Of a DNA stretch of 64,000 nucleotides, positions 10,996 through 16,310 are shown in pieces. The DNA comes from Clostridia bacterium (GTDB taxonomy: Bacteria > Bacillota > Clostridia > Oscillospirales > Butyricicoccaceae). The stretch spans positions 62,001-126,000 of the forward strand of contig JAFQTO010000070.1 in assembly GCA_017408985.1 (NCBI GenBank), given 5' to 3'. The position numbers and the translations under genes are program-made. How positions within the stretch are numbered: position 1 is the stretch's first letter; the number at the start of each line of letters is the position of its first letter. Under the pieces are notes generated by a model that made no database searches, was not told where the DNA came from, and was given only the letters and a program-made list of their open reading frames with translations.

Positions 10996-11715
10996 TCACT
11001 CAAGAATATTTGTGGTTATGTAGTCGATGCCCATATCAATAAAACTCTGTGCCTGCTCAGCTTCGTCCACCGTCCATGCGTTGACCTCAACACCGTTTTC
11101 GTGGCACAGGTCGATAAGCTCTTTTGTGACGGCTTTGCGGTTTATATCCAGATCCATTCCGTCTTTTTTGAGCTTTTCCGCAAGCCCCTCCGTGTACTCG
11201 CTGCACAGAAACTGGACCTTCTGCAGGGGGTGCTTTTCTTTGACGTACAGCAGATTGTCGTAGTCAAAGGATATCAGCACCACGCCCTCGCGGTAATCGG
11301 AGCTGTCGAGGATGTCACACACCTCAAAGACCTTTTCTCTCGGCATCGAGTTTTTAAGCTCAAGCACGGCGATCTTGCCGTATTTTTTGCAGATCTTGAT
11401 ATACTCCTCCAGCGAGGGCATATACAGGTCAACACGGGGCTGCTCGTCAAAATCACGGATGGGCAGTTTGCGCAGGGCATCAAACTCCTGCTCCTCAACC
11501 ACGCTGTCAACGCCCGTCAGACGCAGGGTATTGTCGTCGTGATACACGATAAATCTGCCGTCGCGTGTCACGTGGATATCGGTCTCGATGCCCCAGTAGC
11601 TGCGGTTGCCTGCGGCGACGAATGCAGGCATGGTGTTCTCTCTTTCCAGCTTGCTGACACCTCTGTGTGCCACCATTTTTGTATTGCCCTTGTTTGCAAG
11701 TTTGACGGTATCCAT
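10996..11715 (-). CDS. Glycerophosphodiester phosphodiesterase
   Basis: A 239-residue GDPD-family TIM barrel. MVAHRGVSKLERENTMPAF near residue 14 holds the catalytic His-Arg and the Glu-Asn pair, and GIETDIHVTRDGRFIVYHDD supplies the metal-binding Glu and Asp and second His. The family cleaves deacylated phospholipids to glycerol-3-phosphate and an alcohol. There is no signal peptide, so it should be cytoplasmic. It is the last gene of the glpP-led operon, 14 bases after the HAD phosphatase, with AGGGGAGG before the ATG. Its product is the substrate of the glpA-like enzyme upstream. Confidence 0.92.
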   Translation of the reverse strand: MDTVKLANKGNTKMVAHRGVSKLERENTMPAFVAAGNRSYWGIETDIHVTRDGRFIVYHDDNTLRLTGVDSVVEEQEFDALRKLPIRDFDEQPRVDLYMPSLEEYIKICKKYGKIAVLELKNSMPREKVFEVCDILDSSDYREGVVLISFDYDNLLYVKEKHPLQKVQFLCSEYTEGLAEKLKKDGMDLDINRKAVTKELIDLCHENGVEVNAWTVDEAEQAQSFIDMGIDYITTNILE

Positions 11716-11729
11716 AGTATATCCTCCCC

Positions 11730-12530
11730 TTATTGTTTAAGTATATGCAGAAGCTCCTCGGCGCTGTCCATGACCGCGTGAGGTTTATCGCTTGATGCGT
11801 CCAATATCTCTCTCGTGGTCTCGCCGCTGAGCACCAGCACGGTATACGCGCCCGCCGAAAGTCCGCTCTTGATATCGGTGTATATCCTGTCACCGATCAC
11901 CGCCGTCTGATCGGGGGTGACCCCCGCCTTTTTCATAGCCAGCAGGGGCATTTCGGGCTTTGGCTTGCCGATTACCACGGGGCGGCGGCGGGAGACGTTA
12001 TAGAGCATATCGCACACACTGCCGCAGTCTGGCACAGAGCCGAACTCGGTGGGACAGACGTAGTCGGGGTTGGTGGCGATATAGGGGATATCGGGACGGG
12101 TCAGAAGCAGATAGGAAATATCGTGAAGCTTCTGAAAGGTCAGCTCGGTATCAAACCCCATTACGATGCAGTCGGTATCGCCGGTGTCCTCGGTTATTTC
12201 AAAGCCGTTTTTGGCAAGCTCGGCTTTGAGCGAGCGGGTGCCGCATACGTACAGCTTCTGCCCCCTGTGATGCTCAAGCAGATAGAGGGCGGTTGCCTGA
12301 GATGAGGTGAAAAAATCCTCCTCGGTGGCATCGATCCCCATTTTGGCAAGCTTTGCGACGTAGTCGCTTACGCTTTTTGACGAGTTGTTGGTCATAAACA
12401 TATATCTTTTGCCCTGAGCTTTTATGGTGTCAAGCAGCTCGATCGTAAAATCAAACAGCCTGCTGCCCAGATACAGAGTGCCGTCCATATCAAACAGAAA
12501 CAGCCTGATATTTTTGAGGGTGTTCTTCAT
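11730..12530 (-). CDS. HAD-superfamily phosphatase, NagD/class IIA type
   Basis: A 266-residue HAD hydrolase. Motif I FLFDMDGTLYLG is at the N-terminus, motif II is MTNNSSKS, and motifs III/IV are IGKPKPEMP and IGDRIYTDIKSGLSAG. The long cap between motifs II and III is the C2a type of NagD, AraL and phosphoglycolate/glycerol-3-phosphate phosphatases. The ATG at 12530 overlaps the upstream stop as ATGA and has a GGGGAG site. Position inside a glycerol-3-phosphate operon suggests a role in removing excess glycerol-3-phosphate or a related phosphoester. The substrate is not readable from the sequence. Confidence 0.88.
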   Translation of the reverse strand: MKNTLKNIRLFLFDMDGTLYLGSRLFDFTIELLDTIKAQGKRYMFMTNNSSKSVSDYVAKLAKMGIDATEEDFFTSSQATALYLLEHHRGQKLYVCGTRSLKAELAKNGFEITEDTGDTDCIVMGFDTELTFQKLHDISYLLLTRPDIPYIATNPDYVCPTEFGSVPDCGSVCDMLYNVSRRRPVVIGKPKPEMPLLAMKKAGVTPDQTAVIGDRIYTDIKSGLSAGAYTVLVLSGETTREILDASSDKPHAVMDSAEELLHILKQ

Positions 12531-12877
12531 TATTCCACGCTCCCCGTTGCAATAACCTGTGTTCCGTATATATTGTCGCATATTACGTCTCCGATTGCAA
12601 CAGGTGCAGAGGCGGTCATACCGCGCAAAACCGCCATCAGGTCAAAAATATGCTCTTTGGGGATGGGGTCTTTTGTTTTGACGCTGAGTGCTTTGCCGTC
12701 ACGGTTCACAACCCCTATAACGGCGGTCACCGTGCGCATAGGATGCAGGCACTCGCTGATGCCGTACTCCTCACCGCGTCTGCAGGCGTTGCCCGTGACG
12801 GTGACGGTGCCGTTTTCGATATGCGCCTGCAGGGTACATCCCCGCGGGCAGATTATGCAGGTAAGTGTTCTGTTCAT
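12530..12877 (-). CDS. DUF1667-family cysteine protein of the anaerobic glp operon
   Basis: 115 residues with CIICPRGC at positions 8-15 and another Cys in GNACRRGEEYG, the pattern of DUF1667 proteins. These occur almost only next to a GlpA-like dehydrogenase and an NAD/FAD oxidoreductase, as here. The cysteines could hold an iron-sulfur or zinc site, so a third subunit of a GlpABC-like complex is likely but not shown. It overlaps the FAD oxidoreductase before it and the HAD gene after it by ATGA junctions, implying translational coupling. Confidence 0.88.
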   Translation of the reverse strand: MNRTLTCIICPRGCTLQAHIENGTVTVTGNACRRGEEYGISECLHPMRTVTAVIGVVNRDGKALSVKTKDPIPKEHIFDLMAVLRGMTASAPVAIGDVICDNIYGTQVIATGSVE

Positions 12878-14121
12878 TTCTGCACCTCCACAGATACCGT
12901 AAGGCTGTCCCCGTCGCCCGACGTCAGGCCCACGGGCACCTCAAGCTTTTCCATCTCGCCGGGGGCGACTTTGAGACGGGGGAAGGTCTTTATGACCCGC
13001 CCGCCGTTTTTGACCACCATTCTGACGTTGCTTTGGGGCTCTCTGACACGCAGATACAGAGATACGCTGTCGCCCGTCAGACGCACACGCTGGGGCAGAA
13101 CGTATCTGACGCCCTCCCCTGCCCGTGTCTCAATGCAGGGTGCATCTGTATTTTTGCCCAGCACGTAGTCTGCGGCGGCAATGCCTGCCGTTTCCGCCTC
13201 GTCGGAAACGTGGTCGACCAGATCGTGTACCTGCAGTACGTTTCCGCAGGCAAACACGCCCTCACGTGAGGTCTGTCTGAACTGATCCACCACGGCGCCG
13301 CCCGTGACACGGTCAATGTCAATGCCCGCCGCCTGAGTCAGCTCGTTTTCGGGTATCAAACCGCAGGAAAGGAGCAAAGTGTCGCAGGGGATATACCGCT
13401 TGGTGCTCTCTATGGGCGTGCGGCTTGCGTCCACCTGAGCTACGGTGACCCCCTCAAGGCGCTCTCTGCCGTGTATCTCGGCAACGGTGGTGCTGAGATA
13501 CAGAGGTATACCGTAATCCTCAAGGCACTGCACGATGTTGCGGGTCAGACCGCCCGAATAGGGCAGTATCTCGCAGACCGCCTCCACCTTTGCACCCTGC
13601 AGGGTCATACGGCGCGCCATAATAAGTCCGATATCGCCCGAGCCTAAGATGACTACCCTTTTGCCCACCATATACCCGTCGCAGTTGATAAGCTTCTGTG
13701 CCGTGCCCGCGCTGTAAACGCCCGCGGGACGGGTACCGCTGATATTGAGCGCACCGCGGCTGCGCTCCCGGCAGCCCATAGCCAGCACCACGGCTTTTGC
13801 ACGAATTTTGAGGATGCCGCCCGTGCTTGTGGCGGTGACCGTTTTGTCCTCGCTGATGCTTGTGACCATAGTGTCCGAATAGACCTTGATGCCACGCTCT
13901 CTGATCATCCGCACGTACACGTCGGCATACTCGGGGCCGGTCAGCTCTCTGCCCAGTTTGTGCAGACCGAAACCGTTGTGGATGCACTGCTTGAGCACGC
14001 CGCCCGGATGTTCCTCGCGGTCAATGATAACAACGTCCCTGACCCCTCTGTCGAATGCCGCAGCAGCCGCCGCCATACCCGCAGGGCCGCCGCCTATGAT
14101 GACTATATCGTGATTCTTCAC
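12874..14121 (-). CDS. NAD(FAD)-dependent oxidoreductase of the glp operon
   Basis: A 415-residue pyridine nucleotide-disulfide oxidoreductase-like protein. The FAD motif DIVIIGGGPAGMAAAAAA is at the N-terminus, a second Rossmann motif RVVILGSGDIGLIMARRM lies mid-protein, and GVFACGNVLQVHDLVDHV is the C-terminal FAD motif. A redox-active CxxC of the disulfide reductase type is absent. The 90 residues after the FAD motif look like an added beta-rich domain. It sits between the glpA-like gene (3 bases) and DUF1667 (4-base overlap). It probably passes electrons from glycerol-3-phosphate oxidation to an unknown acceptor. Confidence 0.88.
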   Translation of the reverse strand: MKNHDIVIIGGGPAGMAAAAAAFDRGVRDVVIIDREEHPGGVLKQCIHNGFGLHKLGRELTGPEYADVYVRMIRERGIKVYSDTMVTSISEDKTVTATSTGGILKIRAKAVVLAMGCRERSRGALNISGTRPAGVYSAGTAQKLINCDGYMVGKRVVILGSGDIGLIMARRMTLQGAKVEAVCEILPYSGGLTRNIVQCLEDYGIPLYLSTTVAEIHGRERLEGVTVAQVDASRTPIESTKRYIPCDTLLLSCGLIPENELTQAAGIDIDRVTGGAVVDQFRQTSREGVFACGNVLQVHDLVDHVSDEAETAGIAAADYVLGKNTDAPCIETRAGEGVRYVLPQRVRLTGDSVSLYLRVREPQSNVRMVVKNGGRVIKTFPRLKVAPGEMEKLEVPVGLTSGDGDSLTVSVEVQK

Positions 14122-14124
14122 AGC

Positions 14125-15558
14125 TTATATCCTCCCCGTCAGCATTTTTGACCCGCCGCCGTTTTTGGTAACCTCCTCAAGCTTTATCCCCTGCTCCTCG
14201 GCGATAAGCTTCATAACATAAGGTGCGCAGAAGCCTCCCTGACATCTGCCCATACCCGAGCGGGAACGGCGCTTGACGCCGTCCATATCAAGGGCGGGGG
14301 GATTTTTGCGCAAAGCGTGGCGTATCTCGCCCTCGGTTATGCCCTCACAGCGGCATATTATCCTGCCGTAAGCAGGGTCTTTTTTGATAACGGCATCCTT
14401 TTGCTCATCGGTCAGCTTGGAAAATGCCTCTGTGTCCTCCCGCTTGCCGTTCCAATCGGGTTTTGCACAAAGCTTAACGCCCATTGAGTCCAGAATGTCC
14501 GTGACATATCGGGCGATGGCTGCGCAGGCGGTGAGACCGGGTGAGTCAATAGCGGCAACGTTGACCAGATTCTTGACCAGTTTGGACTGAGCTATGATAA
14601 AATCTCCGTCCATGTGGGATGCACGGACACCGGTGAATGATGTAATGACCTTGGACAAGTCAACCGTGGGCACGCTCTCTTTGACCGAGCGGATAACTGC
14701 GGCAAGTCCCTCTCTCGTTGTCTCGGTGCTGTCGGGTGTGTCCACTCTGACAGCGGTGGGGCCAAGGAGCAGATTTCCGTCGGCGGTGGGCGAGACCAAT
14801 ATGCCCTTTCCCTCTTTGGAGGGGGCGCGGAAGATGGTATGGCTGACCGTTTTGCCCTCGCTGCGGTCAAGGAGCATATACTCGCCCGCGCGGGGGATTA
14901 TCTCAATGGAGTCGTCGCCTGCCATAGCGGCAATTTTGCCCGAATAGCCGCCTGCGCAGTTGATGAGGTATTTGCCGCTGACCCAGTCGCCCGCGCTGCT
15001 GGTGAGACCGAAAAAGCCGTCCTTGTGCTTGATGGAGGTGACCTCAAAATTGCGCATCAGGGTAACGCCGTTGTCCATAGCGTTGCCCACGGCGGCAATT
15101 GTCAGCTTATAGGGGCAGATTATGCCCGCCTCGGGAACGTGCAGAGCAAGGGTGACCGACTGTGAGAGATTGCTCTCAAGCGCTCTTGCCTCGTCCCCCG
15201 ACAGCAGCTTAAGTCCCTGCACGCCGTTGCTTATGCCGCGGCTGTAAAGCTCTCTCAGCTGCTCCTCCTCGTACTCTGAAAAGGCGCAGACCATCGACCC
15301 GTTGCGCAGATAGGGAACAGAAAGCTCCTCCGCCGCTTCAAACAGCAGCTTTACGCCCTCGGTGTTCAGCTTCTGCTTGAGTGTGCCCGGTTCGGGGTCG
15401 TAACCGCCGTGGATGATGCCGCTGTTGGCTTTGGACGCGCCTGCGGCAACGTCGTTGGCTTTTTCCAGCAGGCAGACGCGCAGATCGTACTTTGACAGCT
15501 CTCTGGCTATCATACCGCCGCACACGCCTGCGCCGACTATAAGGATGTCGTATACCAT
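14125..15558 (-). CDS. glpA: Glycerol-3-phosphate dehydrogenase-like FAD oxidoreductase (GlpA type)
   Basis: A 477-residue FAD-dependent DAO-family protein. It begins YDILIVGAGVCGGMIAREL, with GASKANSGIIHGGYDP as the second FAD contact. The C-terminal 90 residues form a BFD-like [2Fe-2S] domain, with CRCEG near residue 395 and CQGGFC near 440. This architecture matches anaerobic glycerol-3-phosphate dehydrogenases that work with the downstream FAD protein and DUF1667. It would convert glycerol-3-phosphate to dihydroxyacetone phosphate. Its leader holds a long terminator hairpin (15592-15647), and glpP lies upstream, so expression is probably controlled by antitermination. L-2-hydroxyglutarate oxidase-like activity is the main alternative. 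Confidence 0.88.
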   Translation of the reverse strand: MVYDILIVGAGVCGGMIARELSKYDLRVCLLEKANDVAAGASKANSGIIHGGYDPEPGTLKQKLNTEGVKLLFEAAEELSVPYLRNGSMVCAFSEYEEEQLRELYSRGISNGVQGLKLLSGDEARALESNLSQSVTLALHVPEAGIICPYKLTIAAVGNAMDNGVTLMRNFEVTSIKHKDGFFGLTSSAGDWVSGKYLINCAGGYSGKIAAMAGDDSIEIIPRAGEYMLLDRSEGKTVSHTIFRAPSKEGKGILVSPTADGNLLLGPTAVRVDTPDSTETTREGLAAVIRSVKESVPTVDLSKVITSFTGVRASHMDGDFIIAQSKLVKNLVNVAAIDSPGLTACAAIARYVTDILDSMGVKLCAKPDWNGKREDTEAFSKLTDEQKDAVIKKDPAYGRIICRCEGITEGEIRHALRKNPPALDMDGVKRRSRSGMGRCQGGFCAPYVMKLIAEEQGIKLEEVTKNGGGSKMLTGRI

Positions 15559-15591
15559 ACAAATTCCCCCATTCGGTTATTATGCAAAAAT

Positions 15592-15647
15592 AAAAAAGGA
15601 AACGGAAAACAAGGCGAAGCAAACTTCGTCCTTATTGTTTCCGTTTC
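15592..15647 (-). terminator. Leader terminator between glpP and glpA, probable GlpP antitermination site
   Basis: Minus strand: a long imperfect stem, outer arms GAAACGGAAA (15647-15638) and TTTCCGTTTC (15608-15599), with an inner GACGAAG/CTTCG stem, followed by six T. It stands about 30 bases before the glpA ATG and just after glpP, the position expected for a GlpP-controlled leader. Confidence 0.85.
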
Positions 15648-15676
15648 TCTTAATCTCTTCGGAATATTAAGTTATT

Positions 15677-16237
15677 TTACAGATACCACAGCTCACTTCT
15701 GCCCGTGGACACAGCCAGCGCACCTGCGGATAATGCCGCCTGCACCTCGGCTTTGGTCTCGATAAGACCTGCCGCGATGATCGGTGTGCGGTCGCTTGCA
15801 AAATGTCTGATGACCTTGTCCACCACACCCGGCATTATCTCTACAAGGTCGGGTCGGGCGGAGTTTATCATCTCGCGGATGCTTAAAAGACCCTGTGAGT
15901 CAACGGCAAAATACCGCTGCACGGTAACCAGCCCGTACTCTTTGGCATATCTCAGCAGGTTGGCGTGGGTAGATATCACCCCGTCCGCGCCGATGGAAGC
16001 CAGATATTCTATGCCGCACTTATCCTTGCCTATTCCCCGTGTCAGGTCGGCGTGGATAAAGATAAGCTTATCGGCGTTATGGGCAAGCTCCACCGTCTGC
16101 GTGGCAGTCCTGATATTCTCGTCCAGCGCAAAAATGACCTCGGCAGGGCTGCTGAGCGCCGCCGTTAAGCCGCCCTGTCTGACGGCGGCAATGACTGGCG
16201 TCCTCTCCAGTCGTTCTTTTACTGCGGAAATATCCAT
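15677..16237 (-). CDS. glpP: Glycerol-3-phosphate-responsive antiterminator GlpP
   Basis: A 186-residue GlpP protein. In Bacillus subtilis GlpP binds glycerol-3-phosphate and the leader mRNA and prevents termination upstream of glpD. Recognisable segments are PVIAAVRQ, VIFALDENI, FIHADLTRGIGKD, GADGVISTHANLL, VQRYFAVDSQGL, EIMPGVVDKVI and PIIAAGLI. The ATG at 16237 is preferred to an upstream TTG because GGGAG lies 9 bases before it. The glp operon lies directly downstream behind a terminator hairpin. It has a clear promoter at 16282-16310. Confidence 0.95.
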   Translation of the reverse strand: MDISAVKERLERTPVIAAVRQGGLTAALSSPAEVIFALDENIRTATQTVELAHNADKLIFIHADLTRGIGKDKCGIEYLASIGADGVISTHANLLRYAKEYGLVTVQRYFAVDSQGLLSIREMINSARPDLVEIMPGVVDKVIRHFASDRTPIIAAGLIETKAEVQAALSAGALAVSTGRSELWYL

Positions 16238-16281
16238 AAGCACCAACTCCCTGCACAGGCTATCCTATGCAGTTTTGTGAG

Positions 16282-16310
16282 ATTATACTACAGCACCGAG
16301 GATTTTGCAA
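16282..16310 (-). promoter_or_regulatory. glpP promoter
   Basis: Minus strand TTGCAA (16310-16305), 17-base spacer, TATAAT (16287-16282), 45 bases before the glpP start. Probably drives the whole glp operon when GlpP is active. Confidence 0.78.

Follow-up and report, generated by a model that had tools for sequence, protein, structure and literature searches.

The window, a 64,000-nucleotide stretch of a Clostridia bacterium genome, carries on its minus strand a locus that reads, in the direction of transcription, as a predicted promoter, glpP, a pair of GAG triplets, an intrinsic terminator, a glpA-like gene, and genes for an oxidoreductase, a DUF1667 protein, a HAD phosphatase and a glycerophosphodiesterase (Table 1). 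The layout proposed by the first-pass annotation, namely glpP followed by a strong intrinsic terminator and then by a glpA-like gene, is borne out, and its enclosing coordinates (15592-16237) are correct. The order of the genes is kept in a sibling genome (G066, locus L052), where glpP, leader, glpA, oxidoreductase, DUF1667, HAD and glycerophosphodiesterase genes are followed by flavodoxin and NUDIX genes.

GlpP has been known from Bacillus since the 1990s. The protein encoded here matches Pfam family PF04309 (G3P_antiterm) over its full length (1-173 of 173; E 2.8e-54; 183.6 bits against a cut-off of 27), matches the solved structures 3kts and 1vkf, and keeps every column that is invariant among the aligned relatives. 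The glpA-like product is a GlpA/GlpO-type FAD dehydrogenase with DAO and Fer2_BFD domains; its best NCBIfam match, which falls under the family cut-off, is NF033460, type 2 glycerol-3-phosphate oxidase. Two side observations concern glpP: by eye, a short hairpin at 16251-16272 (minus strand) in the predicted glpP 5' UTR overlaps the ribosome-binding site and has no U-tract, and Cytobacillus citreus (L003, L080) has two divergent GlpP paralogues (~40% identical), of which the one away from glpFK has no nearby leader.

Table 1. Features of the glpP-glpA locus, numbered from the first letter of the window.
Feature	Position	Strand	Basis or remark
Predicted sigma70-type glpP promoter, TTGCAA-17-TATAAT	16282..16310	-	10/12 consensus match, the best of the region
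glpP, glycerol-3-phosphate responsive antiterminator	15677..16237	-	PF04309, structures 3kts and 1vkf, invariant residues
Antiterminator 5' arm (UUCCG), predicted	15660..15664	-	pairs with 15643-15639; arms covary across relatives
First GAG, predicted GlpP recognition loop	15655..15657	-	GAG-N3-6-GAG in all leaders compared
Second GAG, 5' base of terminator	15647..15649	-	leader comparison
Antiterminator 3' arm (CGGAA), shared with terminator 5' arm	15639..15643	-	folding
Intrinsic terminator hairpin	15597..15649	-	~-25 kcal/mol; U-rich tail 15596-15586
glpA-like FAD-dependent glycerol-3-phosphate dehydrogenase/oxidase	14125..15558	-	PF01266 and PF04324
Pyridine nucleotide-disulphide oxidoreductase, glpB-like partner	12874..14121	-	PF07992
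DUF1667 protein, third subunit-like operon gene	12530..12877	-	PF07892
HAD-IIA phosphatase	11730..12581	-	TIGR01460 over cut-off; same order in sibling L052
Glycerophosphodiester phosphodiesterase	10996..11715	-	PF03009; same order in sibling L052

The terminator follows the glpP stop (15677) after 12-27 nt and precedes the glpA-like start (15558), and a 19-nt gap separates glpP from the GAG pair. Between the predicted transcription start and a glycerol-metabolism gene there is an intrinsic terminator. The 66-nt terminator stretch folds with a z-score of -5.9, and none of 200 shuffled versions folds equally well. An RNA model matches positions 15588-15669 with 76 bits, a score to be read with the window itself among the model's own sequences. 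When both strands of the window were scanned, the GAG-pair terminator site was found only once, and among 81 terminator-like hairpins in 99 kb of its own genome the GAG-N5-GAG signature occurs on one, the terminator behind glpP.

Is this terminator the target of GlpP, as the first-pass annotation presumed? GlpP genes were gathered from the family and order of the window, and about 45 leaders from relatives were compared. Where glpP and glpA adjoin in these relatives, a terminator recurs between them, each time with a GAG pair at its 5' base, and the suggested search for the same leader in relatives yielded GAG-pair terminators in the sibling and in distant relatives. The two GAGs stand 5 nt apart in 24 of 36 leaders, and the other spacings range over 3-6 nt. 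Genes behind GAG-pair leaders are mostly glpA-like, glpP, glpF and Bacillus-type glpD, joined in some genomes by genes that we named by eye as apparent ABC permeases, an MFS transporter and FAD-linked oxidases. The GAG-N5-GAG seen at the terminator base in the window recurs in a Bacillus-group locus (L080), where the leaders of both glpF and glpD have it. The rarity of the signature among terminators of its own genome, together with its recurrence in relatives before glpA, glpP, glpF and glpD, provides good comparative evidence that the terminator is a GlpP site, and on this comparison we regard it as most likely the GlpP target.

At six loci (L004, L006, L008, L010, L011, L012), the strand divergent from glpP carries a second leader of the GlpP type, which has a promoter of its own and precedes an apparent ABC permease gene, a predicted glycerol-3-phosphate-regulated transporter. 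Another locus (L057, 5499-8412) has three GlpP-type leaders; the genes that they precede encode an apparent MFS transporter and, in two cases, an FAD-linked oxidase. On an Enterococcus plasmid (L083), glpP and an FGGY kinase gene are separated by a terminator; this copy was set aside as lacking a clear GAG-N5-GAG at that place. Three entries listed as E. coli plasmids (NZ_CP134663, NZ_OL790696, NZ_CP141089), 4.8-4.9 Mb in length, resemble chromosomes.

The GAG pair comes with a second structural feature. In most relatives a short antiterminator hairpin has both GAGs in its loop, and its 3' arm doubles as the 5' arm of the terminator; in the window, the UUCCG that precedes the first GAG forms a stem with the CGGAA that follows the second, and the 16-nt loop holds both triplets. 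The arms of other leaders differ in their letters and keep their pairing, for example UUGUUUC/GAAACAA, CGUUUU/AAAACG, AAUUACUU/AAGUAAUU, CACCU/AGGUG and UUUGCU/AGCAAA. Since leaders were picked by GAG pair and terminator only, the pairing of the arms formed no part of the search; two leaders (L027, L028) were added by hand because their GAG spacing is 3. For 25 dissimilar leaders situated before glpA, glpP, glpF or glpD, the mean stem score is 12.6, as compared with 7.9 +/- 0.8 when partners are swapped, and none of 10,000 swaps equals it. With other targets included (31 leaders), the scores are 12.5 and 8.0, and 15 GAG-pair matches that lack a glycerol context score 5.5. The hits with glycerol context were chosen by hand, after some of the pairings had been seen by eye, and it is for this reason that the narrower test (n=25), restricted to leaders of glycerol genes, was run. 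This register-free partner-swap test took the place of a single-register covariation count, which is only moderately above its controls because loop length varies, registers with 14- and 16-nt loops both forming peaks. A whole-leader MAFFT alignment was poor and was left out of the results. The two Bacillus-group leaders have the GAG pair, but their flanking arms pair over 3-4 bp only, such that the antiterminator hairpin may not be general.

Stepwise folding of the growing transcript places these structures in order. The antiterminator is the earliest to form (-3.4 kcal/mol) and is still in place when the top of the terminator folds, and the terminator base displaces it in the last few nucleotides only; in the computed folding, antiterminator and terminator are mutually exclusive.

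We are fairly confident that these features constitute a GlpP-dependent conditional terminator that immediately follows the gene for its own antiterminator. In B. subtilis, GlpP with glycerol-3-phosphate bound disrupts 5' UTR terminators at glpD, glpFK and glpT (PMC9604022), and GlpP binds the antiterminator (PMC7430163); it is by analogy with that organism that we infer the ligand, the binding of GlpP and the read-through for the present locus, and conservation points to the GAG loop as the putative site of contact. Transcription from the glpP promoter would yield glpP mRNA and would by default stop at the hairpin, with the weak antiterminator (UUCCG/CGGAA) of the nascent RNA forming first and then giving way to the stronger terminator. 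When glycerol-3-phosphate is present, GlpP would bind the GAG loop and hold the antiterminator, the base of the terminator could then not close, and read-through into the glpA-like, oxidoreductase, DUF1667, HAD and glycerophosphodiesterase genes would follow. As the terminator base closes only in the last nucleotides, a protein on the GAG loop would block termination at the last moment.

Whether regulator and operon share a transcript is a separate matter. A consensus scan of the minus strand from mid-glpP (15795) to the hairpin, a method that misses some promoters, returned none of 8/12 or better. With no promoter recognisable in that interval, glpP and the attenuated operon probably form one transcription unit, as the first-pass annotation had it; we hold a single shared transcript to be the likelier arrangement. 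A variant of the same GlpP switch, in which a weak promoter within the last part of glpP serves the leader and regulator and target are transcribed separately, as they are in Bacillus and most of the family, is a less likely but serious contender. Most relatives with the order glpP, leader, glpA have a recognisable promoter whose -10 element ends 28-34 nt before the GAG pair. A compact layout that leaves no room for a promoter outside glpP occurs in the sibling locus L020 and, in another family, in L031, L032, L034 and L038, and L020 has a TATAAT over the glpP stop codon, 24 nt before its GAG pair and with a weak -35, which makes a promoter within the 3' end of glpP possible. In the window, however, the best candidate just before the leader reaches 7/12, and none reaches 8/12 within 140 nt upstream of the hairpin.

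The hairpin could also be a plain terminator of glpP that acts constitutively, glpA being transcribed from a promoter of its own after the hairpin, a reading that we consider improbable. Such terminators are frequent at gene ends, and of the hairpin-to-glpA promoter that had been named as grounds for rejecting the attenuation proposal, there is a trace in the form of a weak 8/12 promoter-like match, which overlaps the end of the hairpin and itself ends at 15579. The hairpin nevertheless bears the GlpP-leader signature, unlike 80 other terminators in its own genome, and that signature is conserved in the sibling and in distant relatives; moreover, a promoter after the hairpin would leave a conserved regulator and an adjoining conserved leader without a role. 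Still more improbable is a leader whose main effect is on the stability or translation of the mRNA, with bound GlpP serving to protect the glpA transcript. In B. subtilis GlpP does have a stabilising effect on glpD mRNA as well (PMC7430163), but transcription termination is indicated first by the competing hairpin and by the conservation of U-tract terminators, and the two roles are compatible.

With GlpP-dependent antitermination as the preferred reading, what kind of circuit does the locus form? Two statements of the first-pass annotation need amendment here. The first, that in Bacillus GlpP acts at a separate locus, does not hold for the Cytobacillus locus L080, in which glpP also adjoins the glpFK leader; the order there (glpP, promoter, leader, glpF, glpK, leader, glpD) makes regulator and target neighbours in this Bacillus-group genome too. 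The difference between it and the window is the intervening promoter, not distance. The second, that the design is one of feedback, fails on the position of glpP, which lies upstream of the switch and so does not control itself: antitermination leaves its own transcription unchanged, and on neither strand of the window was a GAG-pair terminator found upstream of glpP. The design of the window is feed-forward in cis.

Other genomes place the same parts differently. In loci of a sister genus (g3; L053-L055), glpP lies inside the attenuated glpA operon, at its end and downstream of the leader, and two further loci (L071, L081) likewise end an attenuated glpA operon with glpP downstream of the leader; from gene order, positive autoregulation is implied for all five as a predicted property. 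The leader precedes glpP in L042, L045 and L049, and leaders flank glpP on both sides in L034 and L038 (1371-1413 and about 2049-2102), a bglG-like layout; these arrangements too would be autoregulatory. We lean towards the view that GlpP targets are one definable RNA element of the Bacillota, with two GAGs in an antiterminator loop whose 3' arm is the 5' arm of a terminator, and that this element has been moved around glpP to give at least four circuits. The four that we would name, with similarly measured confidence, are a promoter between regulator and switch, a shared transcript (the window), a regulator gene placed after its switch, for positive feedback, and a regulator gene with a switch on either side.

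How far does the GlpP regulon extend in this organism? Pattern and covariance-model searches of the whole of its own genome found no second leader; the next covariance-model match (25.9 bits) is an ordinary terminator after ribosomal-protein-like genes, is without a GAG pair, and was rejected. The glpK gene lies elsewhere (G000:C32:32036-33511) and has no leader of the GlpP type, and the genome search did not find a MIP/glpF glycerol facilitator gene. These results are suggestive only: GlpP may here be dedicated to the neighbouring operon, and the operon may serve glycerol-3-phosphate from phospholipid turnover, but more targets may exist, given that the genome is only ~85% complete and that distant leaders are detected at just 16-22 bits.

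A specific, testable GlpP target, consisting of two GAGs and a competing hairpin, would permit prediction of GlpP regulons in Clostridia, and neighbouring genera appear to combine the same parts into feed-forward or feedback circuits. Rfam has no match in the window and only a chance-level match in seven leader loci; neither Rfam 15 nor the accessible literature contains a defined, covarying GlpP RNA element, and an earlier description in older papers on the glpD leader is possible.

Among known systems, the closest is GlpP of B. subtilis with its glpD, glpFK and glpT leaders, which is alike in protein family, in the terminator within a 5' UTR and in the glycerol genes that are targeted. The window differs in that its target is a glpA/oxidoreductase/DUF1667 operon with HAD and glycerophosphodiesterase genes, and in that a single leader was found in the genome; the Bacillus-group locus L080 has a clear promoter (TTGACA-17-TATACT) between glpP and leader, whereas the window has none that is recognisable. 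In the hut operon of B. subtilis, the antiterminator HutP is encoded by the first gene and a terminator lies just behind, so that the two systems are alike in having the gene of an RNA-binding antiterminator first and a terminator right after. Protein and ligand are unrelated, however, and HutP reads NAG triplets at sites made of two clusters of three NAGs (PMC7430163), in place of the two GAGs in the hairpin loop of GlpP leaders. The pyr operon of B. subtilis includes the gene of its own regulator, PyrR, and that gene is immediately followed by an attenuator (PMC7430163); the layout is alike, but PyrR promotes termination and GlpP prevents it. BglG/LicT with its RAT is comparable in that a protein-stabilised antiterminator shares an arm with the terminator, although fold and control are unrelated and what GlpP leaders have in common is a GAG pair within a loop of 12-17 nt. 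In E. coli, bglG is flanked by two terminators of the antiterminator type, and the flanking of glpP in L034 and L038 resembles it. The mechanism is already known, and the arrangement varies a familiar bacterial theme, of which the layout in the window is an unusual form.
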